Below are positions 21-17,513 of a stretch of 61,247 nucleotides of DNA, piece after piece. The position numbers and the translations under genes are program-made. Position 1 is the first letter of the stretch; each line of letters starts with the position of its first letter. Origin of the DNA: Phycisphaerae bacterium (GTDB lineage Bacteria > Planctomycetota > Phycisphaerae > Sedimentisphaerales > Anaerobacaceae); the NCBI GenBank assembly GCA_016782865.1, contig JADHXR010000022.1, positions 1-61,247 of the forward strand, in the 5' to 3' direction. Below the pieces are notes generated by a model, which saw only the letters and a program-made list of their open reading frames with translations, searched no databases and was not told the origin of the DNA.

Positions 21-102
21 CGGCTTGATTTTTGACTTGACATCGTGACATCATATGATAGACTGGCCCGATAGTGATAAGAAATTGGTCATGGAGGACC
101 TC

Positions 103-1728
103 ATGAGTATTCCTAAGCAAGATCATCAAGCCAGCTTCTTTGATGCCACCTTTCTCGCTCAAGACCTTTTTGGGCCACGCGATCGGTATGAGATCTTTCG
201 ACAAAAGGTCCTGCCTGCTCTGCAGGACATACGCGAGAATCTTTGCCTATTGTATTGCTTGGACAATGGGCGGCGCGGTATTGAACCGGTTGTGATGGCC
301 GGAGTTACTCTACTGCAATTTATGGAAACCGTTCCTGATCGTAAAGCCGCTGAGAATGTTCGGCTCCATCTGGGTTGGAAACATGCTCTGAATCTCAAGA
401 TTAATGATCCAGGATTCCATCCCACCTCCCTGGTAACCTTTCGTGGCCGATTAGTGGACGAAAAGGACGGCAGGCTCATTTTTGATGGTATTCTGCAAGC
501 ACTTCATGCCGCGGGCTTGGTTAAGCGAAAAGGTAAGCAACGCTTGGATTCAACGCATATAATAGGAGCTGTCGCTAAAATGGGACGGCTGGAGGTCGCT
601 CGGGAGACGGTCCGGCTTTTCCTCGAGACCGTGAAACGCATGGATCTTCAAGGCATGTTCAGCGATTGGGCCATCTTCCACGAACGCTATATCGACAGCG
701 ATATAGCCTGGCATAAGATCAGTCAGGGTCAGATAAACACCAAGTATCAACAGGCTGGCTGCGATATGCTGGCCTTGATTAAATGGATGTCTGAGCACCG
801 GAGCCTTGCTGAACACGATCAAGCTCTGCTGCTGCAACGGGTCTTTCTGGAGCAGTATGAACTATCTGCCCAGGGTATCGCGCGTCGCAAGCATGAAGGT
901 GCAGGCGTTGTCAAGAACCCTCATGATCCAGAGGTTAAATGGTCTACCAAGGATCCCACGCACAAAACAGGATAGGAAGGCTACAAGGCCCAGATCGCCG
1001 AAAGCGTCCCGGAAGGAGATGCTTGCGAGCGTCCGAAAGGCCAGCCTACCACAGGTTTTCTTACGGAAGTGACAACGACCAAAGCGACTGCTAGTGACTA
1101 TGCCGGCCGTGAGGTTGTGGAAGAACGTCAAGAGGAACACGGTTTAGGTGTTGCCGATGAGTTGTACGTAGATGCCGGTTATATAAATGATGACACGCTA
1201 GGCGAAGCCCATCACCAAGAACGAACCCTAATGGGCCCGGCCCGTCCCTCCAATAATCCATCAGGCGAGCTGTTTACTGTGGATGATTTCAAGGTTTCTG
1301 TTTCTAAGCGTCAGGCGGCATGCCCGGCCGGCCATACGAGTACGCAATGCAGTCGCCTGGAAAACCATGAGACGGGCCAGGTGAATTACCGTTTCAAATG
1401 GAGTTATCATTGTGATGCTTGCCCACTTAAAGCTCAGTGCACGAAGGCCCGTAACGGTCGCCGCAGGCTTCTCGTTGGAGAACATCACGATCACCTGCAG
1501 CAGCGTCGCCGGGAGATGCAAACGGAGGCTTTCCAAAAAGCCATGCATCAACGTAATGGTATTGAAGGGACCATCAGTGAGTTTGCCCGTAACGGTGGCA
1601 GACGAACGCGCTACCGCGGGCTGGGCAAGACATCCTTGTGTAATTATCTTCACGGAGCGGGCATAAATGTCAAACGATGGATACGGCTGCTTCAGTATGA
1701 AATGTCAGAAGCCGTGATCACAGGATAA
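103..1728 (+). pseudogene. IS1182-family transposase with an in-frame amber stop
   Basis: This is the DDE-type transposase that would move the element. Reading the same frame straight through the TAG at 973-975 gives one continuous protein of about 540 residues. The N-terminal part is DUF772-like (QASFFDATFLAQDLFG, then RNGRGIEPV-like and HLGWKHALNL blocks). The C-terminal part carries the second half of the catalytic domain, the Cys-rich CDACPLKAQC segment and the RNGIEGTISEFARNGGRR block. Family members usually have a Trp before the GYKAQ motif, so TGG to TAG is the likely change (inference). ATG 103 is preceded by GGAGGA five bases upstream; an upstream in-frame ATG at 55 has no such site. 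A complete protein would need the stop to be misread. Confidence 0.85.
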
Positions 1729-1870: not shown

Positions 1871-3523
1871 CTATGTCGCCTCAAAGGGATGTCTGTAAAA
1901 GGGGTGTTTTTCAGCGGAATCACTTCTTAAGGGCAGGCCCCGATTGTTCCCCCCGATTGTTCCCCCGTGCTTACGGAGTATGTTGGTCAAGCTCTCATAA
2001 TCCATGGCTTCTGCTATCTCGAGTGGAGTCCTGCCAGTGTCACTTATGAGATTGTGGTCGGCTCCTTTGCCTATCAACAGTTCGATCAGATCGGGGTAGC
2101 CGAAGTAACAGGCCCAGTGTAACGGTGCATATCCTAACCAATCCTTGTCGTTGACAGCTTCTCCCTGCGCCAATAATTGTTCGATTTGCTTTACATTATG
2201 ATCACGGACTGCCCGGTGCAACATCTTCACATAGCCTTCAGAGGTCTTATTGGGGTCATACTCAAAGGCACCTAAGTCTGGGGCTTTGCCGACGAAGGGT
2301 AAGCCAACATCCGTCCCGGCGTCAATGGCGTCGCTGCCCGGCGCCAAGCGGAGGAAGTCATTTTTTGGGATGCTGCCGTCGGGATTGCGTGGCCCGGTGA
2401 TCACACTGTCGTCGAGGCTCAAGAAGTCCTGCTCTGTAACATGTATGTCAAGGGGCGTGCTCCAATTATTGTGCTGTTCATTGACCGCAGGGTTGATGCG
2501 GATGCCACCTCCGAGCGAGAGGTTGTTTCTGAGGGTGTTCTTATCGATGTTGCCCTTCGTAAAGGTGAAGGCATAATCGATTCTGTTTCGCAGAGCCGAG
2601 CAATTGTACAGGGTCACGCCCGTGGAGTTGCCGTTCAGATCGAAGCCTCTCACGGGATGTTCCCACGCCGCACAGCGAATCACGATATGCGCACCCTCCA
2701 TCTGGCCGAGCTTGAAACCATTGGCATTTCCCGTAAACCCCGGGTGTTCCCAGATGTTCTGCCCGTTCCGGTAAGCGTAGCAGTTCTCCATGCCTACGCT
2801 ACTACCAGCGTACCAGCAATCGAAACCATCATCGGCATTGTTCCAGGCTCGGCAGCCTATGAGTGTGTTCCCTTGTCCGACCCCGAATTTGGCCCCGAAC
2901 CCGTCGGCGTTCTCTCCGTTGGTGGGCAGGTCGAAGTTTCGGTACGAATCGCAGTTTAGAACCAGGTTGTGTGCAGCACCTCTCGTCAAATTGACACCGG
3001 TATCGCCATTGCTGTGCGTCTGGAGTTGCTCGATTACATTGTGGTGGGAGCCATCCCCTTCCAGTTGAAGGCCCGCTGTTCTGGTATCTGAAATGATCAA
3101 CCCTTTCAGATGCCAATAAGCACCCCTTACTGTGAATCCTCTGCCCTGCTTGACGTTGAAGATAGGCTCTTCATCTCTGTAAGCCCAGACGCGGATGGGC
3201 TTGCCTTGCTCGCCGGATTCAAGCAACATGATGGTCTTATCGCACTGATACTTGCCGCCGCGCACGTACACTGTCTCACCCGGCTTGACCATTGCGATCG
3301 CCCTCTCCAACGTCGCAAGAGGTCGCTCCATTGTGCCTGGTCCGGCGTCATTGCCACCGGTGGCAACGTAGTATCCACCACCGTCCGCGGCGAAGAATGT
3401 GCGGACGGCATTGAGGTATTTGGAGCTTTCGTTTGGATCGGGGGTTTCTGTGGCAAGGCTGACAGAGAACTGGCAAACTAACAATATTCCAAGCACGGCC
3501 TGGTGTGCACATCGTATTCTCAT
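1871..3523 (-). CDS. Secreted PL9-type pectate-lyase-like beta-helix protein with C-terminal ankyrin repeats
   Basis: Residues 1-24 are a signal peptide, so the protein is exported. Residues about 50-420 form a right-handed parallel beta-helix of the polysaccharide lyase 9 type. It opens with the YYVATGGNDAGPGT block and contains ENADGFG and DDGFD, which resemble the Ca-binding Asp cluster, followed by a GFKLG segment holding the candidate catalytic Lys. Residues about 430-522 are three ankyrin repeats, an unusual partner for a lyase. They end in the same LRKHG cap seen in the two ankyrin-BlaR1 proteins nearby. A 13-bp tandem duplication near the 3' end shifts the frame and extends the protein into the IS end. 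Without it the protein would end HGGTIGACP. GAGAGG sits 8 bases before the ATG. Pectate as substrate is inferred. Confidence 0.85.
   Translation of the reverse strand: MRIRCAHQAVLGILLVCQFSVSLATETPDPNESSKYLNAVRTFFAADGGGYYVATGGNDAGPGTMERPLATLERAIAMVKPGETVYVRGGKYQCDKTIMLLESGEQGKPIRVWAYRDEEPIFNVKQGRGFTVRGAYWHLKGLIISDTRTAGLQLEGDGSHHNVIEQLQTHSNGDTGVNLTRGAAHNLVLNCDSYRNFDLPTNGENADGFGAKFGVGQGNTLIGCRAWNNADDGFDCWYAGSSVGMENCYAYRNGQNIWEHPGFTGNANGFKLGQMEGAHIVIRCAAWEHPVRGFDLNGNSTGVTLYNCSALRNRIDYAFTFTKGNIDKNTLRNNLSLGGGIRINPAVNEQHNNWSTPLDIHVTEQDFLSLDDSVITGPRNPDGSIPKNDFLRLAPGSDAIDAGTDVGLPFVGKAPDLGAFEYDPNKTSEGYVKMLHRAVRDHNVKQIEQLLAQGEAVNDKDWLGYAPLHWACYFGYPDLIELLIGKGADHNLISDTGRTPLEIAEAMDYESLTNILRKHGGTIGGNNRGLPLRSDSAEKHPFYRHPFEAT
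1901..1920 (-). repeat. IS right terminal inverted repeat
   Basis: The reverse complement begins ATTCCGCTGAAAAAC and mirrors the window start. The minus-strand gene that stops at 1871 reads through this repeat, so its last 16 or so codons are IS-derived. Confidence 0.85.
1938..1963. repeat. Perfect 13-bp tandem duplication
   Basis: Positions 1938-1950 and 1951-1963 are identical (CCCCGATTGTTCC). Because 13 is not a multiple of three, the second copy shifts the reading frame of the lyase-ankyrin gene. With one copy removed the gene would stop at TAA 1927-1929, before the IS. Confidence 0.9.
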
Positions 3524-3876: not shown

Positions 3877-6800
3877 CTATTGTTCCTTGGCTCCGTTTTT
3901 GCGCAGCAGTTCCACGACCTTAGTATGGCTCCTTTCCTTCGCCAAAGACAAAGCAGTCTGCCCCTTATTTGCCTGGGTGTTCACGTCTGCACCTCTGGCG
4001 ATCAGCAGTTCTACCACTCTCAGACGACCTAGACTGGCTGCCCGATGCAATGGAGTTTGCCCACTATTGTTCTTTGCAGCGATGTCGGCTCCCTTGTTGA
4101 TAAGGAGACTGACAACGTCACTGTGGCCATTACTGGCTGCCCTGTGCAGGACTGTCCAACCGCTTTTGGTCTTTGCATGCACATTCGCCCCCTTGGCGAT
4201 AAGGAATGCCGCCGTATCCCGCTTGCCTGCGGCACATGCGAACCAGAGAGATGCTGCACCCTGATTGTTCTTCTCATTGATATCGGCACCATTGTCAATA
4301 AGCAGTTCTATCACATCATTGTCGCCCTTAGCAGCTGCACGATGCAGCGGTGTCCGACCGTCTTTGCTCCTGGCTTTGACTTCAGCTCCTCTGTCTATGA
4401 GCAGTTCCACAAGTGCTCTGGCACCAGACTGAGCGGCATGATGCAGAGGAGTTTCGTCCTCTTTAGTTTTTGCGTCAACATCAGCACCTCTCGCCAAAAG
4501 AAATTTGGCCACCTCCTCCTGCTCCATTGATGCTGCCCAATGTAGAGCCGTCCAGCCATGCTCATCCTTCTCGTTAAGATCGGTTCCTTGCTCTATAGAA
4601 CTCTTGACACGGTCTGAATCACCCATGCATGCGGCCAAATGGAACGTGGAAATATCGGCGCCCTTGCTCGCGAAGAACTTGACTATCTCTCGATTTCCCA
4701 TCCAAGCTGCGTGGTAAAAGACCGTCGAGCCGTCAATAGTCTTGACGTCGAATCTAGCACCCTTTGCAAGGAGCAGTTCTACGCTTTCTAAGTCATTGTT
4801 CATGACGGCATAGTAAAGTGGCGGATAGTCATCTTCAGCTACGAGATTTACATCGGCGCCATTTTCTATCATGAACCTTACTGTGTCTCTGTCGTTGCTC
4901 CAAATGGCCGGGTATAATGGGATATAGCCAAATTTGTCCCCAGCATTTATATCAGCACCGTTAGCCAGAAGAATCTCTATTACCTCTTTGTGACCATTTT
5001 GAACCGCGTAGTACATGGGCGTAAAACCCCTGAAGTCCTTTTCTTTTGCATTTACGTCCGCACCCTGTGAAATGAGCGATTTGACCTGCTCAATATCACC
5101 GTCAGCTGCAGCCTCGTGGATTGACTTGACTGGTTTGGATTCTTTCAGGGCAGCAGCGGTACCGTCCTTCGTTCCGTGCTTCTTGAGCAGTTCAACGATT
5201 TCAGTGTGATCCCGGTTCTGGGCATACCATAAAGCAGTGCGGCCTTGGTTGTCTTTGAGGTTTGGATTGGCCCCCTTGGCGATAAGCAATTCCAGTGTGT
5301 GCCTCCGGCCTTCTAGTGCTGCCGAGTGAATTGGTGTGCCTCCATCATATTTCTTTGGATTCAGATCAGCGCCTTCAGCAATAAGCATTTCTGCGATGGT
5401 CATGTGGCCCTCTTTAGCTGCCCAATGAAGCGGCGTCCAGCCGAATTTGTCGGCCACATTGACATCCACTCCCTTGGAAATCAGCAACTCCACCACTTCC
5501 TGGTGACCTATGCCTGCAGCCAACCGCAGGGGTGTAATACCAAACCTATTCTTTGTAGAGATGTCGGCGCCGTGCACGACCAGCAGTTCTGCAACGTTTT
5601 TGTGACCGGCCCTTGCAGCATCCTGGAGAGGTGTCCACCGCCTATTGATGTTGCCCTCAATTTCAGCCCCTGCCTCAATAAGCATCTTGGCGATTTTGTC
5701 ATGTCCAGCCAAGGCAGCGCTGTTAAGGGGAGTAGTATTGTCTTTCGTTGTTGCATTGATGTCAGCACCATTGGCAAGGAGAAGTCTGACCACATCGAGA
5801 TGCCCCCCACTGGCGGCGGCGTGCAGTGGGGTGCCGTTCGATGAGTTTCTCGAATCAATATCCGTGCCCTCGGAGATAAAACGATTTACCTTCTTCAAAT
5901 CGCCAAGAAGAGCAGCTGCATGCAACGTGGTGACTTCTACACCTCTGGCCACAAGGAGTTCGGCAACAGCGGCGCCGTCTCCCATAGCCGCGACATCCAA
6001 AGGAGTCTCACCGTGCTTGTTTACAGCAGCAACATCAGCACCCTGCTCCAAAAGCAACGTTGCCATGTCCGTTAGGCCGTCATTGGCCGCATGGTGCAAA
6101 GGCGTCCATCCATCGTTATCACTCTTCCCTACATCTGTTCCCCTTGTGATAAGCAGTTTGCCCAGTTTCGTCTGGTTCATCATGACTGCCCAGTGCAAAC
6201 CGGTTAGCCCCGAATTGTCTCCCACATTTCCATCTGCTCCATTGACGATCAGCAACTCCGCCAACTGTTCATCTTGACACGAAAGAGCCCAGTGCAAAGG
6301 CGTCCATCCGTCGGCATACTTGGCATTTACATTACCTCCTTCCGATATGAGTTGCTCAACCCGTCTGATATCGCCTTCCTTTACTGCAGCCTGCAGTGCT
6401 TCTGTGACCTCCTGCAAATGCGTATCGACAGTGCCTGTCTCTGCAGTAGTGGTCAAGCCAATGGTAATAGGCTTGTCTCGATGTTCGGTCGCAATTCTTA
6501 GTCCTGAAGAGCGAGTTTGGGCAAAGGCAACACCCATGGTAAGACATATCGCCACGATAGTCATTGCCAAGACCCATCCTACTCCTACCCGCGGGTTGCC
6601 GCAGCTATCTTTTAGAATGCGATCGATCCTGCCGGCTAATCCTTTCTTACTGTGGACTACTGCCGGCAGAAACGCCATCTGTCTTTGCGGCCTGAAGCGA
6701 AGGAGCGACTCGGCGTAGTCTTCGGAAGGTTGGCCGGTGGCTACAACCCAGTCATCGCATGCTTGCTCACCTAACCTGACCAGACATTTCTTCGATAACC

Positions 6801-7560
6801 ACATTAGTGGATTCCACGGCAGCAAGCATACCATCAACTCCGCCATTAGCCCGGTGATGTGATCCCTCCGTTTGGAGTGCGCCAACTCATGGGCCACAAC
6901 GCCCGCCCAATCGATTCTCGGATCCCTACAACTGTTCGGTACAAGCAGAATTGGCGGACGGCTCCAGCACCACACAATAGGACTACGAATGCGCCTGCTT
7001 CCACGAACCTGAAGCCCACAAGAGAGTCCAAGGTTCAACGTTACATCGTCTACGGCCCGCTGTACTTGTTCACGCCCCGGCCTTTGTGCGTTTCGTACTA
7101 TATAGGCACCATACATGAATGTAACGATCAGTCGAGCTAACAGGGCGAGCGTTGCTATTATCCACCCGTACACTGCGACTGTACGCCATGAGATGCTGAA
7201 CCTTGTTGAAGTTATCTCGGCGGGTCCTGAATTGATATCCGCTGGCGATACAGCAGCCGGAACAGCTATCCCAGCTAAGTCATCAGTTCCTGCCAGGGGA
7301 ATGGCCTCGGGCCCTTCCAGTAGTGTACCGAAAGAATCAGTGGCTCTTGCAGTGAAAACTCCCAGATCGTAGTGTTTGACCACAGCGCTCATCAGCGGGA
7401 CGATTACAGCCGCCAACATAGCGAATAGAAGTACCTGATATGCCCGCGACGGGCGACGCCGCAGAAGATAGCCGGCCACTAATCCCAGGGCAATGAACGC
7501 CATGCTCTGCCACAAACAGCCCCACAACGACAAATCCTGTAACAATGACTCACGCATCAT
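3877..7560 (-). CDS. M56 (BlaR1/MecR1-like) membrane peptidase with giant ankyrin sensor
   Basis: The N-terminal 370 residues have the BlaR1 layout. Three hydrophobic segments lie near residues 12-32, 40-60 and 125-155, followed by the zinc site HELAHSKRRDH (first His 224), the downstream GEQACDDWV segment, and a fourth hydrophobic segment near 340-362. In BlaR1 the chain after the fourth segment is outside the cell and binds beta-lactam. Here it is instead about 24 ankyrin repeats (residues 380-1227) in two blocks, separated by a cap and linker near residue 790. The gene overlaps the upstream BlaI-like repressor by 4 bp (ATGA), so the two are co-expressed. By analogy, ligand binding by the array would activate the peptidase and lead to repressor loss. 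The ligand is unknown. Confidence 0.9.
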   Translation of the reverse strand: MMRESLLQDLSLWGCLWQSMAFIALGLVAGYLLRRRPSRAYQVLLFAMLAAVIVPLMSAVVKHYDLGVFTARATDSFGTLLEGPEAIPLAGTDDLAGIAVPAAVSPADINSGPAEITSTRFSISWRTVAVYGWIIATLALLARLIVTFMYGAYIVRNAQRPGREQVQRAVDDVTLNLGLSCGLQVRGSRRIRSPIVWCWSRPPILLVPNSCRDPRIDWAGVVAHELAHSKRRDHITGLMAELMVCLLPWNPLMWLSKKCLVRLGEQACDDWVVATGQPSEDYAESLLRFRPQRQMAFLPAVVHSKKGLAGRIDRILKDSCGNPRVGVGWVLAMTIVAICLTMGVAFAQTRSSGLRIATEHRDKPITIGLTTTAETGTVDTHLQEVTEALQAAVKEGDIRRVEQLISEGGNVNAKYADGWTPLHWALSCQDEQLAELLIVNGADGNVGDNSGLTGLHWAVMMNQTKLGKLLITRGTDVGKSDNDGWTPLHHAANDGLTDMATLLLEQGADVAAVNKHGETPLDVAAMGDGAAVAELLVARGVEVTTLHAAALLGDLKKVNRFISEGTDIDSRNSSNGTPLHAAASGGHLDVVRLLLANGADINATTKDNTTPLNSAALAGHDKIAKMLIEAGAEIEGNINRRWTPLQDAARAGHKNVAELLVVHGADISTKNRFGITPLRLAAGIGHQEVVELLISKGVDVNVADKFGWTPLHWAAKEGHMTIAEMLIAEGADLNPKKYDGGTPIHSAALEGRRHTLELLIAKGANPNLKDNQGRTALWYAQNRDHTEIVELLKKHGTKDGTAAALKESKPVKSIHEAAADGDIEQVKSLISQGADVNAKEKDFRGFTPMYYAVQNGHKEVIEILLANGADINAGDKFGYIPLYPAIWSNDRDTVRFMIENGADVNLVAEDDYPPLYYAVMNNDLESVELLLAKGARFDVKTIDGSTVFYHAAWMGNREIVKFFASKGADISTFHLAACMGDSDRVKSSIEQGTDLNEKDEHGWTALHWAASMEQEEVAKFLLARGADVDAKTKEDETPLHHAAQSGARALVELLIDRGAEVKARSKDGRTPLHRAAAKGDNDVIELLIDNGADINEKNNQGAASLWFACAAGKRDTAAFLIAKGANVHAKTKSGWTVLHRAASNGHSDVVSLLINKGADIAAKNNSGQTPLHRAASLGRLRVVELLIARGADVNTQANKGQTALSLAKERSHTKVVELLRKNGAKEQ

Positions 7561-7949
7561 TTTCGTTTCTCCTTTCGTTTCTTGCTAATTACTTTCTGAA
7601 GCTCCTGGAGTTGCTCATCACTAAGATCGCCTTCTTCTACGAGATGACGGAACATCAACAGAGCGTTCCCATCATAGATACGCTGTGCCAGTTTATGTAT
7701 AGAGCTTATACCCGCCTGCTTGCGCGTGCGTGTCGGAATGTACACGTTGCTTTTTCCCTCAACTCGGTGCCGCAACCATCCGGATTTCTCAAGTCTCTGC
7801 ATGGCCGCCAGAATTGTCGTGTACGACAGATCTTTCTTGGGGCAAATCCGTTCCCATACTTGACGGACAGTAGCCTCACCAAAATCCCAGATGACTTCGA
7901 TTACGGCCCGTTGTAACTTGCCCAATTGATCAAGTGGTTGTTTGCTCAT
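7557..7949 (-). CDS. BlaI/MecI/CopY-family transcriptional repressor
   Basis: This 130-residue protein has the usual length and layout of BlaI. The N-terminal winged helix contains LGKLQRAVIEVIWDFGEATV and the LSYTTILAAMQRLEKSGWL recognition helix region. The C-terminal half is helical and suits dimerisation; it ends in a Lys-rich tail. Family members bind inverted repeats in their own promoter and are inactivated when the partner M56 peptidase signals. GAGGTG lies 6 bases before the ATG. The gene is first in an operon with the ankyrin-M56 peptidase. The promoter at 7999-8027 has a perfect inverted repeat in its spacer, which is the likely operator. Confidence 0.92.
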   Translation of the reverse strand: MSKQPLDQLGKLQRAVIEVIWDFGEATVRQVWERICPKKDLSYTTILAAMQRLEKSGWLRHRVEGKSNVYIPTRTRKQAGISSIHKLAQRIYDGNALLMFRHLVEEGDLSDEQLQELQKVISKKRKEKRK

Positions 7950-7998
7950 GTGAACACCTCATTACCTTATTCACGCTTTCTAATTAATACGTCTTGAA

Positions 7999-8027
7999 AG
8001 TGTACGTCTCTTAGACGTATACGTCAA
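7999..8027 (-). promoter_or_regulatory. Sigma70-like promoter of the first blaI-blaR1 operon
   Basis: On the minus strand TTGACG (8022-8027) and TACACT (7999-8004) are separated by exactly 17 bp. The predicted start of transcription is about 45 bp upstream of the repressor ATG. Confidence 0.7.
8003..8019. promoter_or_regulatory. Candidate BlaI operator in the promoter spacer
   Basis: The sequence is a perfect 7-bp inverted repeat, TACGTCT-CTT-AGACGTA. It fills the spacer between -35 and -10, so a bound dimer would block RNA polymerase. Two further TACGTC half-sites lie at 7988-7993 and 8020-8025. Identity as the BlaI site is inferred from position. Confidence 0.65.
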
Positions 8028-8070
8028 CAAGAAAATCGGAAATTTTCTGAAAAAACTTTTTCAAACTGCA

Positions 8071-8095
8071 TTCTTGCCCTCAAAAAGGCGGAAAA
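8071..8095 (-). repeat. 25-bp element shared upstream of both blaI promoters (copy 1)
   Basis: Read on the minus strand it differs at one base from 9708-9732 read on the plus strand. It sits 43 bp upstream of the -35 of the first operon. The other copy sits 42 bp upstream of the -35 of the second, so position and orientation relative to the promoter are conserved. Confidence 0.8.
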
Positions 8096-8449
8096 TGGGG
8101 CGAAAAAATATGCTGAAGTCGGGTACAGAATTTTCACCCCTGTCTGAATTTCTGCACAAACTGCCTCCCGGCTGTCGCGGGGCGGAATGAGGGTGGTTGG
8201 GATTAGGATCGTTGTTCTTTGGCGGTGTGGCTGTGGAGGGAAACGACCGTTGGTGAGGGGCTGATTGGGCAGTAGCCATCAAGGCATTTTGCTCCTCCTG
8301 AGAGTTGACATAAGGGACCTTTGACATGTTCACCAGAGACTGTACAATCCTGCTTATGAAGAATAGTGAAAGCCGGGAAGAACGCCACACTTAGCCGTTA
8401 TGGAGCGTAGCGACATAGCAACAGGCAAGCTATACGAAAAGGAATGGAA

Positions 8450-8536
8450 ATGCCGTACGAGCTTCTATACAACCGTCTTCCGAAAATAGCGGAGCGTGAA
8501 ACCCGCAATATTATCATAACAGAAGATTCAGGCCTT
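8450..8536 (+). pseudogene. N-terminal fragment of a conserved small protein
   Basis: ATG 8450 follows an AAAGGA site and starts MPYELLYNRLPKIAERETR and then NIIITEDSG. This resembles the first 30 residues of small bacterial proteins that begin with a LP-xIA-xxETR motif and later have a Cys cluster (recalled, not searched). The frame then runs into GC-rich tandem repeats coding LRRG units, and the expected rest is missing. Confidence 0.35.
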
Positions 8537-8540
8537 GAGG

Positions 8541-8579
8541 GGCTTCGCAGGGGGCTTCGCAGGGGGGGCTTCGCAGGGT
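8541..8579. repeat. Three tandem copies of GGCTTCGCAGGG
   Basis: Copies start at 8541, 8553 and 8567, with varying numbers of G between them. The unit resembles the ends of dispersed palindromic repeats, and the array probably marks where the preceding fragment was broken. Confidence 0.7.
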
Positions 8580-8761
8580 CAGACCTGGTTATTATGCTTT
8601 TCGCTCGTTGCCACGAATGGTTCCGTGGTAAAGAGCGCCTCCATATTCGATTCGAAAAGGTCTAGCCATGAGAGCAATCTAAACATAGTACATCGAATTG
8701 TTAAGAAAAAGCATAAAAGCCAGTCACGGTAGGGACACCTGTCACCAGGTGCCCCCCGCAC

Positions 8762-8795
8762 AGATCCGTACGTGAGGAACTACCTCATACGGCTC
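8762..8795 (-). ncRNA. Group II intron domain V-like hairpin
   Basis: On the minus strand GAGCCGTATGAGG pairs with CCTCACGTACGGATC. It has the AGC catalytic triad region and the two-base CG bulge typical of domain V. It departs from consensus in a G-A mismatch at the third pair and a five-base TAGTT loop in place of a GNRA tetraloop, which suggests decay. Confidence 0.65.
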
Positions 8796-9355
8796 CTACC
8801 TTGAGTAATTGGCGTCAAAGCGAAGACTCTTTGACGCACTCGTTGCAGTCCGTTCGACGCGAAGCCCCGGCCTTGTATCCGGTTCGCAGCTTTCTGCTTC
8901 GAGTTCCTCTTGGTCGATGCCCTTTCCTCGGCCAACTCCGCGGAGACCTCCGTCCCTTTGTTCGCTGGCGTCTTGGGTACTATGGCACCGTCCGACTCCT
9001 CGGTAGCATGATCAATGGGCGTTTGGCTATTAACCTTCCCCACGTCGTCCAACCTTTCGTCTAGGCGAGGGCAGTTGGACCCTACCGAGGTCTCCCGATT
9101 TTCGTGCAGAGAGCGTCCGCACATGCCAGGTTCTATGACTCCGTCGAATCCAGGTGCAACTCGCGTTCTGTCGTTACCACTGATGTTGCCTTCCCCTGCA
9201 CGCCACCGGGTCGGCATTCGAGATGAGGTGATTTCGGAGCTCAATAGCCCGCCTGTGCTTTCCCCTGTCAACGCTTCCCCACGCCCTCGCGGGTCGTCGA
9301 GGCATGACTCGGGGCCAGAGTGATGCGCGTCATCTTCCCTGTAAGACTCTTTCAT
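8780..9355 (-). pseudogene. Group II intron-encoded protein, N-terminal leader only
   Basis: The frame starts MKESYREDDAHHSGPESC and contains GEALTGE, LHENRET, EESDGAIVPKTPANKG and AELAEERASTKRN. These blocks occur in that order in the leader of many group II intron reverse transcriptases. It stops soon after NGLQRVRQRV, where the FTALLHH start of the RT domain would follow. All catalytic parts (YADD region, maturase, endonuclease) are absent. Confidence 0.7.
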
Positions 9356-9707
9356 TCTCTACTCTCTGCCGACTTTAATCGGCGCTTTCGGTCTGACCCT
9401 TGAAACGTGCTCTTGAAACGTGCTAAGCGAGTATCCGCCTGTATTGGCTCAACAACCGAGAAGAATTGTTCGCGGCCCCGATTTGTCCGGTCCACACGCC
9501 GATTTACCGCAAGAGTCATGAGATCAACATGCTGAAGGAGTTTTCTTGGCCCTTCGCAAGAAGATGAGGGCCAAAAGAAAACGGTCCATTCGACGCAAGG
9601 CTCCTGCCTCAACCTGCATCATGTTTGTCCTATTCACCCTGTACCTGCGCGGCGATGCCAGTCGAAAGCCCACCTACTCATTATCCGGAAGTGCCTTTTT
9701 TGCACTT

Positions 9708-9732
9708 TTTTCCGCGTTTTTGAGGGCAAGAA
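9708..9732 (+). repeat. 25-bp element shared upstream of both blaI promoters (copy 2)
   Basis: This differs at one base from the minus-strand reading of 8071-8095. It includes TTTTTGAGGGCAAGAA and lies 42 bp upstream of the -35 of the second cassette. Confidence 0.8.
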
Positions 9733-9752
9733 CCACGATAGCCAGGTTTTTC

Positions 9753-9766
9753 TAAAATATATTTTA
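9753..9766. promoter_or_regulatory. Perfect 14-bp AT palindrome
   Basis: TAAAATATATTTTA is its own reverse complement and sits 8 bp upstream of the -35 of the second blaI operon. It could be a repressor site or an UP-like element; the sequence does not decide. Confidence 0.45.
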
Positions 9767-9774
9767 TTTTTTTC

Positions 9775-9803
9775 TTGCATCTTTTATTAATATCAAATAT
9801 CTT
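9775..9803 (+). promoter_or_regulatory. Sigma70-like promoter of the second blaI-blaR1 operon
   Basis: TTGCAT (9775-9780) and TATCTT (9798-9803) are 17 bp apart. The start of transcription would be about 20-25 bp upstream of the repressor ATG. The spacer is AT-rich and lacks the TACGTC repeats of the first operon, so the two repressors probably recognise different sites. Confidence 0.55.
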
Positions 9804-9832
9804 CTTGTTTAATCAAATTAGGAGATTACGAT

Positions 9833-10252
9833 ATGCCGACATTGAAGAAAAAGAAGAAGGGCCGTCGCAAGAAGCTGGTTGCGGAACTCACCGAAGCCGA
9901 ATGGGAGATAATGAACGTCGTCTGGGACAAGGAGCCCTGCGCGGCCGGGACCGTTCAGGAAGCTCTGGCCAAGAGCAGGGACTGGGCCTATGCGACGGTC
10001 AAACTCACAATGGACCGGATGGTTAAGAAGGGTTTTCTGGAAATCAACAAGATCCGCAACCTTCAACTCTTCCGCTCCTGCATTACCGAGGTCGAAGCCA
10101 GACGCGGAGAATTGCGCAAAATGCTCACGCGAGCCTTCGGCGGGACTCTCACGCCTATGCTGAAGTTCCTTGTCGAGCACGAGGGCCTTTCAAAGGAGGA
10201 AGCAGCCCAGCTTCGTCAGTTCGTGGGCAAGACAGGGAAGAACCAAGGCTAA
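9833..10252 (+). CDS. BlaI/MecI/CopY-family transcriptional repressor (second copy)
   Basis: This 139-residue repressor starts with a Lys/Arg-rich segment (KKKKKGRRKK) before the winged helix. LTEAEWEIMNVVWDKEPC and the YATVKLTMDRMVKKGFL recognition region identify the family. The C-terminal half would dimerise and respond to the partner peptidase. AGGAGA stands 7 bases before the ATG. The next gene, a second ankyrin-M56 peptidase, starts 33 bp downstream. The sequence is clearly diverged from the repressor at 7557-7949, so this is not a recent duplicate. Confidence 0.92.
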   Translation: MPTLKKKKKGRRKKLVAELTEAEWEIMNVVWDKEPCAAGTVQEALAKSRDWAYATVKLTMDRMVKKGFLEINKIRNLQLFRSCITEVEARRGELRKMLTRAFGGTLTPMLKFLVEHEGLSKEEAAQLRQFVGKTGKNQG

Positions 10253-10285
10253 CAGAATATATTCATATCAGCGGGAGGTATATAA

Positions 10286-13237
10286 ATGAATCACATGATT
10301 AACAACCTTCTGACAGCTTTGAATAATGTCGGCGAAGCTTTCTGTGAACATGCCGCCGGAGTATTTGTACAAACCGCTTTTTTGGTCATTCTTCTCTATG
10401 CCGTTGATTTGCTGTTGCGCAAGCGAGTGCGCGCAGTCTTTCGCTATTGCGTCTGGCTGCTGGTGCTTGCAAAACTCGTTCTGCCTCCCACGCTTTCTCT
10501 GCCGACGGGGGTAGGATACTGGGCCGCAGACCATCTTCCTTCCGCCATGAACGTCTCAAGCAGACCTTTCGATGCGCCCGGATTTGAGTACATGGGTACG
10601 TCTGGTGAGAGACCTCATACGGGGCCATCCGACGATGTTGCCGAAAGCGCTCCTCTGGTCGTAGCGGAAAATGCGCCTCTGACCGCTCTGACGTGGCAGG
10701 CGATACTGTTCATCCTCTGGCTTGTGGGTGTTTTGGCCTTCCTGGCTCTGCTCGTTCAGCGCGCCAGATTTGTGAGGGGTTTGATCGTAGCGAGCACGCC
10801 GGCAACAGCAGAGTTTGCCGGGGTGCTCGAACAGTGTCGCCGACGAATCGGCGTTCGCTGGAACACAAGCGTAAGAATCTCAGATACCATCCCAAGCCCG
10901 GCCGTTTGCGGATTCTTCAGGCCAACTATCGTGATTCCCGTCACTTTGGTTGACAAGCTTTCACCGGATGGATTGAAAGCGATTCTGATTCACGAGCTGG
11001 CCCACATTAAGAGGGGAGACTTGTGGGTCAATTCCATCCAAACGTTCCTGCAAATCGCTTACTTCTACAATCCATTCGTGTGGTTCGCCAATTCTATCAT
11101 TCGCCGGGTCTGTGAAGAAGCGGTCGACGAGACGGTCCTCGTGGCGCTCGGAGGACGGGCGAAAGACTACAGCAATACGCTCATCGACATTGGCGAGATG
11201 GCATTTTGGAAAGCCGACTTAGCGCTGCGCCTCATCGGCGTAGCGGAATCAAGAAAAGTTTTACAGTGGAGGATCAGACACATGTTGACACGACCGATAC
11301 CAAAAAGTTCAAAGCTCGGTGCCCTTGGTATAGCTATACTTCTTGTTTTCGCGGCCGTCTTGCTTCCCATGGCCAGAGCTGAGAAGTCAAGTGAAGTCAG
11401 TGGCACTACTGCAGTCGAGAGTGAGAGAGAGCTGGCCAAATCACTCCTCAAAGCTGCAAACACAGGTAAAGTAGCCGACGTCAAGTCACTCATCTCGAGG
11501 GGTGTTGATGTCAATGCAAAAAACGCATGGAGCCAAACCGCGTTGCACTACGCAGCCAGTAACGGCCACAAAGAGATCGTCAAAGTGCTTCTGGCACACG
11601 GTGCGGATGTGAATGCCGGAAATCACTTCAACCTGACGCCTGCGCGTCTTGCCATGGAAGCCGGCCATATCGAGATAGTTGAACTGCTCATTTCCAAAGG
11701 TGCTGATGTTACTCCTCTGCATTTAGCCGTTCATATGAAAGACCTGGCCAAGGCAAAGAGCCTGATTGAAGGCGGTGCCGATGTCAACAAACGGACGCAG
11801 TGTGGCACCACACCACTGCACACTGCGGCAATTATAGGTTCCAAGAATATTGCCAAACTGCTAATCGATAAGGGTGCCGATGTTAATGCAAACTCCGGAG
11901 TGGGCTGGACACCACTGCACGAAGCTGGCGAAAGCGGACAAAAGGACGTGGCGGAGCTTCTCATCGCCAAAGGGGCAGATGTCAATGCGAAAGAAGGAGA
12001 GGGCTGGACGGCGTTACACTACGCTGCCCACGAAGGCCACAAGGACATGGTTGAACTGCTGATTACCAAAGGGGCGGATGTCAACGCAAAGAACGGAGAT
12101 GGTGAGATTCCCCTGCACCGTGCAGCCAGGAGGGATCACAAGGACGTGACAGAACTTCTAATTGCCAAGGGCGCCAATGTCAACGCCAGCGATAAGGCTG
12201 GCAGAACGCCTGTTATGATCGAATTTGAGAGTGGGCGAGTTTCTATGGTAGACCTTCTGATTGCTAAAGGGGCGGATGTGCCTGTTGACCTTCATGCTGC
12301 ATATAGAGGCGACTTGACATGGATAAACAAAGTAGTCGAGAGGGGCAAAGCACGTGAAACATTTAGCCAGGGCCTGACTTTATTGCATGCCGCAGCTCTT
12401 GGTGGCCACAAGGAGGTTGTGGAGCTACTTCTGAGCAACGATTTGGATCTGCACCAGAAAACCGACACGGCACTGACTGCATTGCATCACGCAGCCGGTG
12501 CAAATCGAAAAGATGTAGTAGACACATTGCTTGCCAGAGGAGCGGATATTAATGCTGGCAAATGGACACCGTTACATCAAGCAGTGAGGGAGTTACAAGA
12601 GGACATGGTCCAGCATCTTCTCATCAAAGGAGCAAATCCTAATGCCATTGGGAAAGAGCGCTTCACCCCTTTGCAATGGGCAGTGTGGATGTGGAGTCCA
12701 GAGATTGCTTATCTGCTAATATCGCATGGTGCTGACGTCCATCTCGATTCGACGGGTTATGGGGGTACGCCTCTGGCTGAAGCTATCAGGGAGGGACAGC
12801 CACTGATGATTGAGATACTTCTTTACGGAGCAGGAGATACGAGTACAGGTGGGAGGACACCCTTGCACGCAGCTGCTCTGTTTGGAAATAGAGAGAAAGC
12901 AGAACAGCTTATTGCCGAGGGAGCAAATGTAAATGCCAGAGACGACCGTATCGGATTTACGCCCCTTCATTGGGCAGTCAGACCGGGGGGACATAAAGAC
13001 GTGGTGGAACTGCTTGTTAAGAAGGGAGCAGATCTTGATGCAAAATGCGAATGGGATGCAACGCCTTTATTCCTAGCAGCCAATCGAGGCCATCTGCAAA
13101 TCTGCGAGTTACTTATAACTGCAGGAGCAGATCTCAATGTCAAGGATAAATGGGATTGGACAGTGTTATCTAAAGCCAAGCAGAAAGGCAATACCAAAAT
13201 CGTCGAACTGTTGCGCAAGCACGGGGCCAGAGAATGA
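10286..13237 (+). CDS. M56 (BlaR1-like) membrane peptidase with ankyrin sensor (second copy)
   Basis: The N-terminal half has hydrophobic segments near residues 24-44, 50-70 and 135-160, the zinc motif HELAHIKRGDL (His 235), the downstream CEEAVDETVL segment with a candidate third ligand, and a fourth hydrophobic segment near 342-362. After it come about 18 ankyrin repeats to the C-terminus, ending KIVELLRKHGARE. BlaR1 topology places this array outside the cytoplasmic membrane in place of the beta-lactam sensor. GGGAGG precedes the ATG. The protein belongs to the operon of the upstream repressor and ends 20 bp from the convergent lexA gene. It is a diverged paralogue of 3877-7560 with a shorter array. 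Confidence 0.9.
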   Translation: MNHMINNLLTALNNVGEAFCEHAAGVFVQTAFLVILLYAVDLLLRKRVRAVFRYCVWLLVLAKLVLPPTLSLPTGVGYWAADHLPSAMNVSSRPFDAPGFEYMGTSGERPHTGPSDDVAESAPLVVAENAPLTALTWQAILFILWLVGVLAFLALLVQRARFVRGLIVASTPATAEFAGVLEQCRRRIGVRWNTSVRISDTIPSPAVCGFFRPTIVIPVTLVDKLSPDGLKAILIHELAHIKRGDLWVNSIQTFLQIAYFYNPFVWFANSIIRRVCEEAVDETVLVALGGRAKDYSNTLIDIGEMAFWKADLALRLIGVAESRKVLQWRIRHMLTRPIPKSSKLGALGIAILLVFAAVLLPMARAEKSSEVSGTTAVESERELAKSLLKAANTGKVADVKSLISRGVDVNAKNAWSQTALHYAASNGHKEIVKVLLAHGADVNAGNHFNLTPARLAMEAGHIEIVELLISKGADVTPLHLAVHMKDLAKAKSLIEGGADVNKRTQCGTTPLHTAAIIGSKNIAKLLIDKGADVNANSGVGWTPLHEAGESGQKDVAELLIAKGADVNAKEGEGWTALHYAAHEGHKDMVELLITKGADVNAKNGDGEIPLHRAARRDHKDVTELLIAKGANVNASDKAGRTPVMIEFESGRVSMVDLLIAKGADVPVDLHAAYRGDLTWINKVVERGKARETFSQGLTLLHAAALGGHKEVVELLLSNDLDLHQKTDTALTALHHAAGANRKDVVDTLLARGADINAGKWTPLHQAVRELQEDMVQHLLIKGANPNAIGKERFTPLQWAVWMWSPEIAYLLISHGADVHLDSTGYGGTPLAEAIREGQPLMIEILLYGAGDTSTGGRTPLHAAALFGNREKAEQLIAEGANVNARDDRIGFTPLHWAVRPGGHKDVVELLVKKGADLDAKCEWDATPLFLAANRGHLQICELLITAGADLNVKDKWDWTVLSKAKQKGNTKIVELLRKHGARE

Positions 13238-15516: not shown

Positions 15517-15720
15517 CGTTGAAAAGTCCCTCGTTCCGCGAAATTCTCAACGCTTCCGAACCTGCCTTTTTTCTGTGTTTTCAACTCAGGAATGAGGGTG
15601 ACAAATTCTTGTCTTCAAGAAACTCGCATTCTTCTGTTGGAATCTACTTCAAGTTGTGGTACTTTATTAAGAGGTATTGAACGGAAGGACCCGATAAGCG
15701 AAGGAGAGGAGGTTGATTTT

Positions 15721-15783: not shown

Positions 15784-15866
15784 CTCTACGTGAGCCTTTA
15801 ACAAGTCGGCAAAGGTAATTGCACAATGACATATCATCACACGGCAAGATTTCGGAGAGTAGAACG

Positions 15867-17513
15867 ATGAAGAAAACGATTCAACTAATATTGCTGTCTA
15901 TTCTATTGCCGGCGGCACTTGCCCAGGCCGCTGGGATCAATGTGGATGTCTTCCTGCTCGGCGGACAATCAAATGCTGCCGGCAGAGGTGTAGTATCCGA
16001 GGCGCCGGATCCTTCGGCGCTGCAAAACGCGAACATAATGCTCTACCACTCGGCCAGCATGAATAGCGGACAGCCGGCTCGCCAGTGGACAACCCTGAGG
16101 CCGGCCTCGAACTCTGCGGGCTACTTCGGCCCCGAAATCGGCTTCGGCAACAGAATGACAGAGCTCTACCCGGATCGCCAAATTGCGATCATCAAGCACG
16201 CCGTCGGTGGAACCAACATTGGAGCCGATTGGAATCCGGGGGTCAGTACCGGCGACGCAGATCATTTTGGCCCGCAGTATGCGACGTTCGTCGAAACCGT
16301 AAACGCCGGTATCAGTTCGGTGATTGCTCAGGGGTATGAACCCGTTATAAGGGGTATGCTCTGGCAACAGGGTGAGAGGGATGCAAGGGACAGTTCATTC
16401 GGACCGGCCTATGATCGGAACCTTTCACATTTCATCAGACGTGTTCGGGCACAATTCGACGCTCCGAATATGCCCTTTGTGTATGGGCAGGTATTGCCTG
16501 TACCTTTGTCGGCATATGACTATCGCGACCAGGTCCGTCAGGGGCAGTGGGATGTAGATGAGGATTCAGGCCATCTCTCCGCGACCGACGGTGCTCGACT
16601 GGTGCCGGCGGATGACCTGCCGATGAATTCGGATAATCTTCACGTGAGCGCTGCCGGACAGATGGAGCTTGGGATTCGTTTTGCGGATGCACTCGGTTCC
16701 GTTGTCGCAGCTAACGCCGTTGACTTCAATGGGGACGCAAAGGTCGATGGCGCGGATGTCGCGGCCCTGATCGACTACTGGCACGTTGACGAACCAGCTT
16801 ACGACATTGCTCCGCCACCATTCGGCGACGGGATCATAGATGTTCAGGATCTGGTCGTTGTGGCCGACCATTTGTTCCAGGAGATTCCGCCGGCCGAATT
16901 GATCGCACACTGGAAGCTCGATGAGACAGACAGCAGCATCGCCTATGACACCTTGGGCCACGACGGCACCCTTAACGGCGACCCGCAGTGGCAGCCGGCC
17001 AACGGCATGAAAGGCGGTGCGCTTCACTTCGATGGGATTGACGATTTCGTGAGCACATCCTTCGCATTGGACCCGGCACTTGGTCCGTTCAGTGTTTTTG
17101 CATGGGTCAATGGCGGCTCGCCCGGTCAGGTAATTCTCTCCCAGGAAGGCGGTGCGAATTGGCTGTGGGCCGACATCGTTGATGGAGCACTCGCAACAGA
17201 TCTCAGGAAGCCGGAGATGCTTGGCCGCAACGCCAGCCCACCGGGACCTCCGTTAATTTCGGCGGCCATCGTCATCGATGGGGACTGGCATCAAATAGGT
17301 TTTGTCACAGACGGAAGCAGCAGGATTCTCTATGTGGATGGTATTGAGGTTGCCCGTGACGTAGACACTGGGCTGGAGCCCGCAACCGGAGGCCTGTACA
17401 TCGGTGCCGGAAGCACTCCGGAGAGCAGCACCTTCTTCTCCGGCCTGATTGACGACGTTCGCATTTACGACACAGCACTCAGTGCAGAAGAAATCGCGGC
17501 CCTCACACAGTAG
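15867..17513 (+). CDS. Secreted SASA-type acetylesterase with dockerin and LamG domains
   Basis: The signal peptide is MKKTIQLILLSILLPAALAQA. Residues about 25-270 form a SASA (sialate O-acetylesterase-like, carbohydrate esterase) domain. FLLGGQSNAAGRG holds the nucleophile Ser, MLWQQGERDAR is the central block, and DNLHVSAAGQ holds the C-terminal Asp/His pair. Next is a dockerin-like pair of Ca loops (DFNGDAKVDGADV and DGIIDVQDLV), then a concanavalin/LamG domain that starts LIAHWKLDE. It should deacetylate extracellular polysaccharide. GGAGAG precedes ATG 15867. A strong terminator follows at 17551. Confidence 0.9.
   Translation: MKKTIQLILLSILLPAALAQAAGINVDVFLLGGQSNAAGRGVVSEAPDPSALQNANIMLYHSASMNSGQPARQWTTLRPASNSAGYFGPEIGFGNRMTELYPDRQIAIIKHAVGGTNIGADWNPGVSTGDADHFGPQYATFVETVNAGISSVIAQGYEPVIRGMLWQQGERDARDSSFGPAYDRNLSHFIRRVRAQFDAPNMPFVYGQVLPVPLSAYDYRDQVRQGQWDVDEDSGHLSATDGARLVPADDLPMNSDNLHVSAAGQMELGIRFADALGSVVAANAVDFNGDAKVDGADVAALIDYWHVDEPAYDIAPPPFGDGIIDVQDLVVVADHLFQEIPPAELIAHWKLDETDSSIAYDTLGHDGTLNGDPQWQPANGMKGGALHFDGIDDFVSTSFALDPALGPFSVFAWVNGGSPGQVILSQEGGANWLWADIVDGALATDLRKPEMLGRNASPPGPPLISAAIVIDGDWHQIGFVTDGSSRILYVDGIEVARDVDTGLEPATGGLYIGAGSTPESSTFFSGLIDDVRIYDTALSAEEIAALTQ

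Follow-up and report, generated by a model that had tools for sequence, protein, structure and literature searches.

What does a giant ankyrin array do on a BlaR1-like regulatory protease? BlaR1 is the beta-lactam sensor behind resistance in staphylococci. In the 61,247 nucleotides of a Phycisphaerae bacterium that we analysed (the window), two neighbouring gene pairs, each encoding a BlaI-family repressor and an M56 membrane protease, carry such arrays. We consider it probable that each cassette forms a signalling unit that represses itself: its BlaR1-like chassis is constant and holds an exchangeable module, here an ankyrin array with a predicted periplasmic position, where it would bind a protein. 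What we observe, and what this reading builds on, is the pairing of the genes, a complete protease site, clade-conserved sites in the cassettes' own promoters and the replacement of the module just after the fourth membrane segment (TM4).

The initial annotation had described two diverged BlaI/M56 pairs lying back to back, with some 24 and some 18 ankyrin repeats in place of the penicillin-binding sensor behind the fourth membrane segment. Our analysis bears this out. Both pairs are present, on opposite strands (Table 1), a repeat profile built here counts 25 units in A and 18 in B, and the Pfam scan finds ankyrin repeats (best model 4.6e-179 in A and 4.7e-124 in B) and no penicillin-binding or class D beta-lactamase-like sensor domain in either protein. 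The structure matches of the BlaI of cassette A are MecI and penicillinase-repressor structures, and its gene overlaps the m56 gene by 4 bp; chassis B matches the solved BlaR1 structure 8exs (2.5e-5 over residues 190-353). With the arrays counted in, BLAST gives about 29% identity between the M56 proteins of A and B, which are therefore diverged: this identity rules out A as a recent duplicate of B, and the two cassettes are two old clades side by side. Upstream of another cassette of this genome (C236) we noticed by eye a frame (L022 6778-7350) that resembles the one over the intron piece between A and B, and a transposase-like gene in two frames (window 55-1728, by eye) adjoins the lyase next to cassette A.

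Table 1. Positions of the two cassettes and adjacent features in the window.
Feature	Coordinates	Strand	Characteristics
Pel9A-like lyase	1871..3523	-	leader-like start, short ankyrin stretch; neighbour of cassette A
Whole M56 gene, cassette A	3877-7560	-	1227 aa; Pfam Peptidase_M56 (PF05569) 2e-19
Ankyrin array A	3880..6396	-	25 units from residue 389; repeat profile and Pfam
M56 chassis A, residues 1-352	6505..7560	-	4 membrane segments; protease site between third and fourth
BlaI-family repressor, cassette A	7557..7949	-	130 aa; Pfam Penicillinase_R 4.8e-25
Predicted promoter/operator A	7988..8027	-	TTGACG, then two overlapping dyads TAC-N11-GTAC-N11-GTA
Group II intron piece between A and B	9129..9350	-	Rfam RF02005, 170.7 bits
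Predicted promoter/operator B	9775..9799	+	third half-site near 9812-9819, before ribosome-binding site; pattern in 18/23 B-type cassettes
BlaI-family repressor, cassette B	9833..10252	+	139 aa; Pfam Penicillinase_R 6.2e-28; MecI structure match 2e-16
Whole M56 gene, cassette B	10286-13237	+	983 aa; Pfam Peptidase_M56 (PF05569) 3e-45
M56 chassis B, residues 1-372	10286..11401	+	Pfam 3e-45; joint at residue 372
Ankyrin array B	11453..13234	+	18 units from residue 390; Pfam, repeat profile, AlphaFold repeat solenoid

The protease part appears intact. The zinc site that defines M56 peptidases, HExxH and ExxxD (PMC9834060), is present in all 102 ankyrin-bearing rows of our alignment, which comprise 98 listed homologues, B among them, and the window genome's proteins A, B, C31 and C34. 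Hydropathy marks four membrane regions in A and in B, the last at residues 323-349 and 340-367, respectively, and none C-terminal to it. Lysine and arginine are more frequent before TM4 than after it in 101 of the 102 rows and equally frequent in one. Hydropathy and charge agree with a predicted N-out, C-out topology, which would place the array in the periplasm, with the protease directed towards the cytoplasm. The initial annotation had placed the arrays outside; a position beyond the inner membrane is what we predict as well, and for a planctomycete the periplasm is most likely what "outside" amounts to. AlphaFold was applied to B, with an alignment of 35 rows (B and 34 of the 97 other listed ankyrin homologues); the resulting model (mean pLDDT 73.6) is confident in the array and poor in the membrane part. 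Comparison of this model with known structures returned ankyrin-type chains, mostly over residues 452-679, and is uninformative on the chassis.

Conserved, clade-specific sites link each repressor, at the sequence level, to its own promoter. Most A-type cassettes (n=19, those with a chassis nearest to A or to C218a) have TTGACA-NN-TAC-N11-GTAC-N11-GTA, or a sequence close to it, about 70 bp before the BlaI domain; the double dyad is found in 16 of the 19, in none of 200 rounds of dinucleotide shuffles and in none of 33 B-, C31- and C35a-type cassettes. Judged by eye, the dyads span the region behind the -35 box in which a -10 box would be expected. The B-type arrangement recurs in 18 of 23 B-type cassettes, B included (shuffle mean 0.16, maximum 2). 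Both patterns were read off the same sequences on which they were scored, so the shuffle controls are optimistic, and the whole-genome test concerns the A-type pattern only. More generally, an exact palindrome with 6-bp arms containing some G+C stands upstream of 32 of 65 cassettes (shuffle mean 6, maximum 12). At its own blaI promoter, each of the two clades, A-type and B-type, has a conserved predicted operator of its own, and the link between repressor and promoter on which the initial annotation had staked its reading is thus supported by candidate sites in both.

The same annotation had proposed a genome-wide search with the palindrome TACGTCT-N3-AGACGTA to list regulon genes. This search returned the cassette's own promoter, where the palindrome at 8003-8019 is the sole exact match in the window genome, and no other gene above control: sites with one mismatch are absent and nine have two, against 37 sites per strand for the reversed pattern. 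The exact A-type operator gives 28 sites in 161 genomes of the order, and its reversed pattern none. Behind 26 of these 28 sites lies blaI, 24 times at a distance of 76-145 bp, once at 295 bp and once at 662 bp. Since the A-type operator stands almost only before blaI-m56, derepression is predicted mainly to yield more cassette. Any further targets of the A type are rare or were not seen, and the main visible target is likely the cassette itself, which is the unusual point of the system.

This observation bears on the alternative that the cassettes conduct ordinary BlaR1-like signalling, with the array as sensor and scattered genes with diverged operators as the real outputs, which we regard as rather unlikely. 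The two exact A-type sites that do not precede blaI would fit such a wider regulon; one stands before a PKD protein (L277), the other before a PAF-AH/PETase-like hydrolase (L291), and by eye each of these proteins has a leader-like start. So would the 662-bp case (L278), where operator and blaI are separated by a 196-aa frame whose leader looks lipoprotein-like by eye, and a site with two mismatches before a SASA esterase gene in the window. However, at up to two mismatches the window genome holds 10 A-type sites against 21 of the reversed control, and both perfect ones precede blaI. The operator of cassette C34, TTGTACATATGTACAA, has no second site within two mismatches, and the L291 frame (1544-2866), which lies directly behind its operator, starts with an apparent blaI remnant (by eye); this hydrolase is perhaps a target captured by deletion. 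In the 89 genomes of the family, sites with at most one mismatch number 42 against 6 in the control, counted irrespective of the genes behind the added ones. The esterase gene (15819-17513) also encodes a laminin G domain, and its A-like double site (15637-15676, 143-182 bp before the gene, at -174) is a lead only, as the genome has eight two-mismatch sites and the reversed control 21 sites in all. The genome assembly (7.25 Mb, 240 contigs) is 84% complete, so targets may be missing from it.

How particular is the ankyrin array to this chassis? By coordinates, the 13 PF05569 (M56) and 13 PF03965 (BlaI) matches of the window genome form 13 neighbouring pairs. Pfam finds ankyrin arrays in four of the 12 M56 proteins scanned (A, B, C31 and C34), of which C34 also has PD40 repeats. 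Carboxypeptidase-regulatory domains occur on five others (C35a, C35b, C218a, C77 and C236), joined by an AhpC/TSA domain in C35a, secretin N-domains and leucine-rich repeats (LRR) in C218a and a secretin domain in C77; C112 has PD40 and laminin G, and C218b and C56 have no clear extra domain in Pfam. In addition to these 12, there is an M56 remnant of 122 aa on contig C231 (L023 7428-7793), beside a full-length BlaI match. The ankyrin M56 gene of C31 runs off its contig end (L015 1-138), and contig C100 starts with the same 138 bp, followed by ankyrin repeats. In other genomes of the order, a profile search of 60 regions (40 B-chassis and 20 A-chassis places, some frames being cut by contig ends) found ankyrin arrays on 7 of 74 M56 frames. 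Ankyrin is thus a minority among relatives and one of many modules on this chassis; in the window genome, the pairs without ankyrin mostly have different modules of exported type.

The window also contains an ankyrin-bearing secreted lyase, which had been proposed as an output of the system. This proposal is not supported: the lyase has a sigma-70-like promoter site of its own (11 of 12) at 3624-3596, no operator of the A, B, C31 or C34 type lies within 350 bp of the frame start in nine ankyrin genes, the lyase included, and on contig C34 a related ankyrin lyase and an ankyrin M56 gene are about 25 kb apart. At the sequence level, the lyase thus has no support as a regulon member. A conserved neighbour as target was likewise rejected, as no gene is common to the ankyrin cassettes in ten loci inspected by eye; two of these loci (L250 and L251) have neighbours in common, and three species of one genus have a divergent gene in common. 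Relatives of the window lyase occur at three further places in the genome (C34, C141 and C144); among the 88 other genomes of the family, 9 contain such relatives (E up to 1e-60). Five PF06917 pectate lyases are fused to ankyrin repeats (contigs C141, C229, C144 and C167; L323, L324, L328 and L331), one of them with an additional Pel9A-like domain and two with FG-GAP repeats. A leader-like hydrophobic start is found in 12 of 15 further ankyrin frames (at least three units), in some only from an inner start codon and by a crude test; C100, one of the three frames without a leader, probably continues the C31 gene. Two pectate lyases match the window lyase in its leader, at 78-80% over 108-123 bp. 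Recent exchange of arrays between M56 proteins and lyases within the genome was also rejected, because among 19 ankyrin genes no M56 array matched a lyase array in DNA over 70 bp or more at 78% or higher. The ankyrin lyases are possible partners of the arrays.

Such partners would also suit a second alternative, improbable in our judgement, in which the array is the effector, an inducible membrane-anchored binding or protective protein comparable to Bd3460 or Imm-ank, and the chassis is a mere expression switch. Binding and inhibition of enzymes by a periplasmic ankyrin protein are reported for Bd3460 (PMC4686830), and ankyrin immunity proteins are recorded for planctomycetes (PMC3482391). Thioredoxin-like modules are among those on the chassis, and the genome encodes six or more lyases with ankyrin repeats, the majority of which have a leader-like start. 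A lyase adjoins cassette A, where a Bd3460-like gene would be expected beside its bound enzyme; against this alternative, no neighbour common to the ankyrin cassettes was seen by eye in the ten loci. Moreover, a joint directly at TM4 seems to fit signal transfer better than mere anchoring.

This joint also bears on the exchange of modules. With the first 385 or 390 residues as queries we obtained 1003 and 273 homologous proteins, of which the best 120 each were used; these listed chassis homologues have many different C-termini. In the 14 listed non-ankyrin relatives most identical to B (68-74%), the alignment ends at residue 372 in 12 and at 385 and 396 in two, and TM4 of B ends at about residue 367. 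The corresponding 14 relatives of A (52-75%) end at 352 in seven, at 350-365 in six and at 415 in one. Over all listed non-ankyrin alignments, the end point has a median of 377 for B (n=147, range 276-479) and of 352 for A (n=148, range 287-455); the wide spread over the 147 B alignments means that the joint is sharp only among close relatives. CdiA and Rhs proteins have this kind of layout, a constant N-terminal part with an exchanged C-terminal part, and exchange of C-termini at a fixed joint, as in polymorphic toxins, is what we find here.

Even where the ankyrin module is retained, chassis and array identity are nearly uncoupled. B and its homologue P0002 have 94.9% identical chassis and 40.6% identical arrays (chance level 42%), and P0047 and P0050 have 96.7% and 41.6%. 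Ankyrin pairs with a chassis identity of 85-90% (n=103) have a median array identity of 45% (29-94), and pairs below 50% chassis identity have 42% (range 30-61, 38 of 60 draws); B enters this comparison twice, as itself and as P0001. Against this reading, some pairs retain their array, such as P0020 and P0028 (chassis 88.7%, array 90.9%). In the same 85-90% bin, PD40 modules are 49% identical (8 pairs) and LRR modules 43% (6 pairs), whereas carboxypeptidase-regulatory modules are 92% identical (28 pairs); ankyrin is thus not alone in its divergence, and some modules are conserved. The module label differs in 835 pairs of listed homologues with a chassis identity of at least 75% (highest 91.6%), where non-ankyrin labels were assigned from Pfam columns and "other" counts as a label. 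A FastTree phylogeny of 245 chassis, with weak branches left uncollapsed, requires at least 34 changes between ankyrin and non-ankyrin, against a mean of 78 and a minimum of 67 in 100 label shuffles, so the module appears to be inherited for a while and yet has changed often.

The genus g40 provides a direct case of such a replacement. In three of its genomes, the locus consists of a divergent gene, a blaI (86-92% identical), an m56 and a second blaI/m56 pair. Between G068 and G069, the stretch with the divergent gene, promoter, blaI and chassis is 88.1% identical in DNA over 4.8 kb, this identity stops at codon 353 in both, and it resumes at 86.7% for 2.5 kb, starting 110 and 19 bp past the two stop codons. 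The swapped part is the C-terminal module only, from codon 353 to the stop: an ankyrin array of 15 units in G068, and a module with an AhpC/TSA match (thioredoxin-like) in G069 and G070. Conserved flanks on both sides argue against a chimeric assembly. That the differing C-termini are assembly chimeras or functionless drifting fusions is very improbable, although the sequences are mostly metagenomic and the chassis is conserved and multi-copy: the replacement is syntenic between separate genomes, the alternative module is 68.9% identical between G069 and G070, an ankyrin-bearing M56 lies in a one-contig genome (G033), and the protease site is kept throughout the 102 rows. The divergent gene of g40 (L258, L256 and L254) encodes a protein with internal repeats and a weak Pfam match, 842 aa long in two genomes and cut by the contig end in G070. 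As its promoter region is common with blaI in the three species, this protein is a possible divergon target.

The same protease base with different outer parts at the same joint thus likely acts as a mix-and-match sensor that switches itself. By analogy with BlaR1, the array of such a self-repressing unit would bind a protein ligand in the periplasm, and the bound array would shift TM4 and so turn on the protease. The activated protease would then cut its paired BlaI, as described for the direct cleavage of BlaI by BlaR1 (PMC9834060; regulated proteolysis is reviewed in PMC7593790), and this cleavage would release the cassette promoter. The main output would be more cassette, and hence a membrane richer in array; additional exported proteins would be few at most. 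Some points count against this explanation. For a sensor, it is odd to control nothing but its own circuit; the picture would change if there were unseen targets with degenerate operators or further substrates of the protease; and the thioredoxin-like and secretin modules found on this chassis resemble effectors more than they do sensors.

More tentatively, we see a realistic possibility that the cassettes form an open-ended receptor kit, in which one protease and repressor with clade-specific operators are combined with whole recognition modules swapped at a fixed joint below TM4, the ankyrin arrays being the fast-changing ones. A loaded receptor would induce itself, and the cell would thereby arm the matching binder. 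If true, bacteria would have in this kit, by way of regulated proteolysis, a counterpart of variable-domain receptors.

The BlaR1 protease chassis appears as a general platform that combines very different outer modules with one joint and clade-separate operators. M56 protease signalling would then tolerate almost any module after TM4, which would make the long-standing question of how sensor and protease communicate testable on natural swaps; the ankyrin arrays in these bacteria would be suggested as periplasmic protein binders. The initial annotation knew of no characterised example, and a search of the open-access literature by title and abstract start agrees with it: no description of a BlaR1/M56-ankyrin signalling system was found among the papers listed. 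A word search of the Phycisphaerae genome survey PMC11266412 did not return ankyrin, M56 or BlaI. JGI protein names already combine both domains; the architecture has thus been annotated, and it is its discussion that we did not find in the open-access literature.

Three known systems resemble the cassettes in part. Polymorphic toxins such as CdiA and Rhs likewise join a constant N-terminal part to an exchanged C-terminal part. They differ in that the constant part here is a regulatory protease and in that we recognised no immunity gene; Pfam detected no toxin domain in the 12 M56 proteins of this genome that were scanned. Bd3460 of Bdellovibrio bacteriovorus is described as an ankyrin protein that is exported and acts in the periplasm, where it binds enzymes (PMC4686830). 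Together with Imm-ank (PMC3482391), it offers a likeness in its periplasmic ankyrin repeats, which act there in Bd3460 and are predicted there in our cassettes; Bd3460 differs in having six repeats and in being soluble, without a protease or repressor (PMC4686830). Closest are BlaR1/BlaI and MecR1/MecI, which have in common with the cassettes an M56 protease bearing the HExxH and ExxxD motifs, a C-terminal module after the last of four membrane segments, an adjacent winged-helix BlaI partner and an operator, here predicted by sequence, in their own promoter. Unlike these resistance systems, the planctomycete cassettes have no recognised beta-lactamase or PBP2a gene beside them, their operators vary by clade, and they carry an exchangeable ankyrin array and no penicillin-binding sensor after the last membrane segment.
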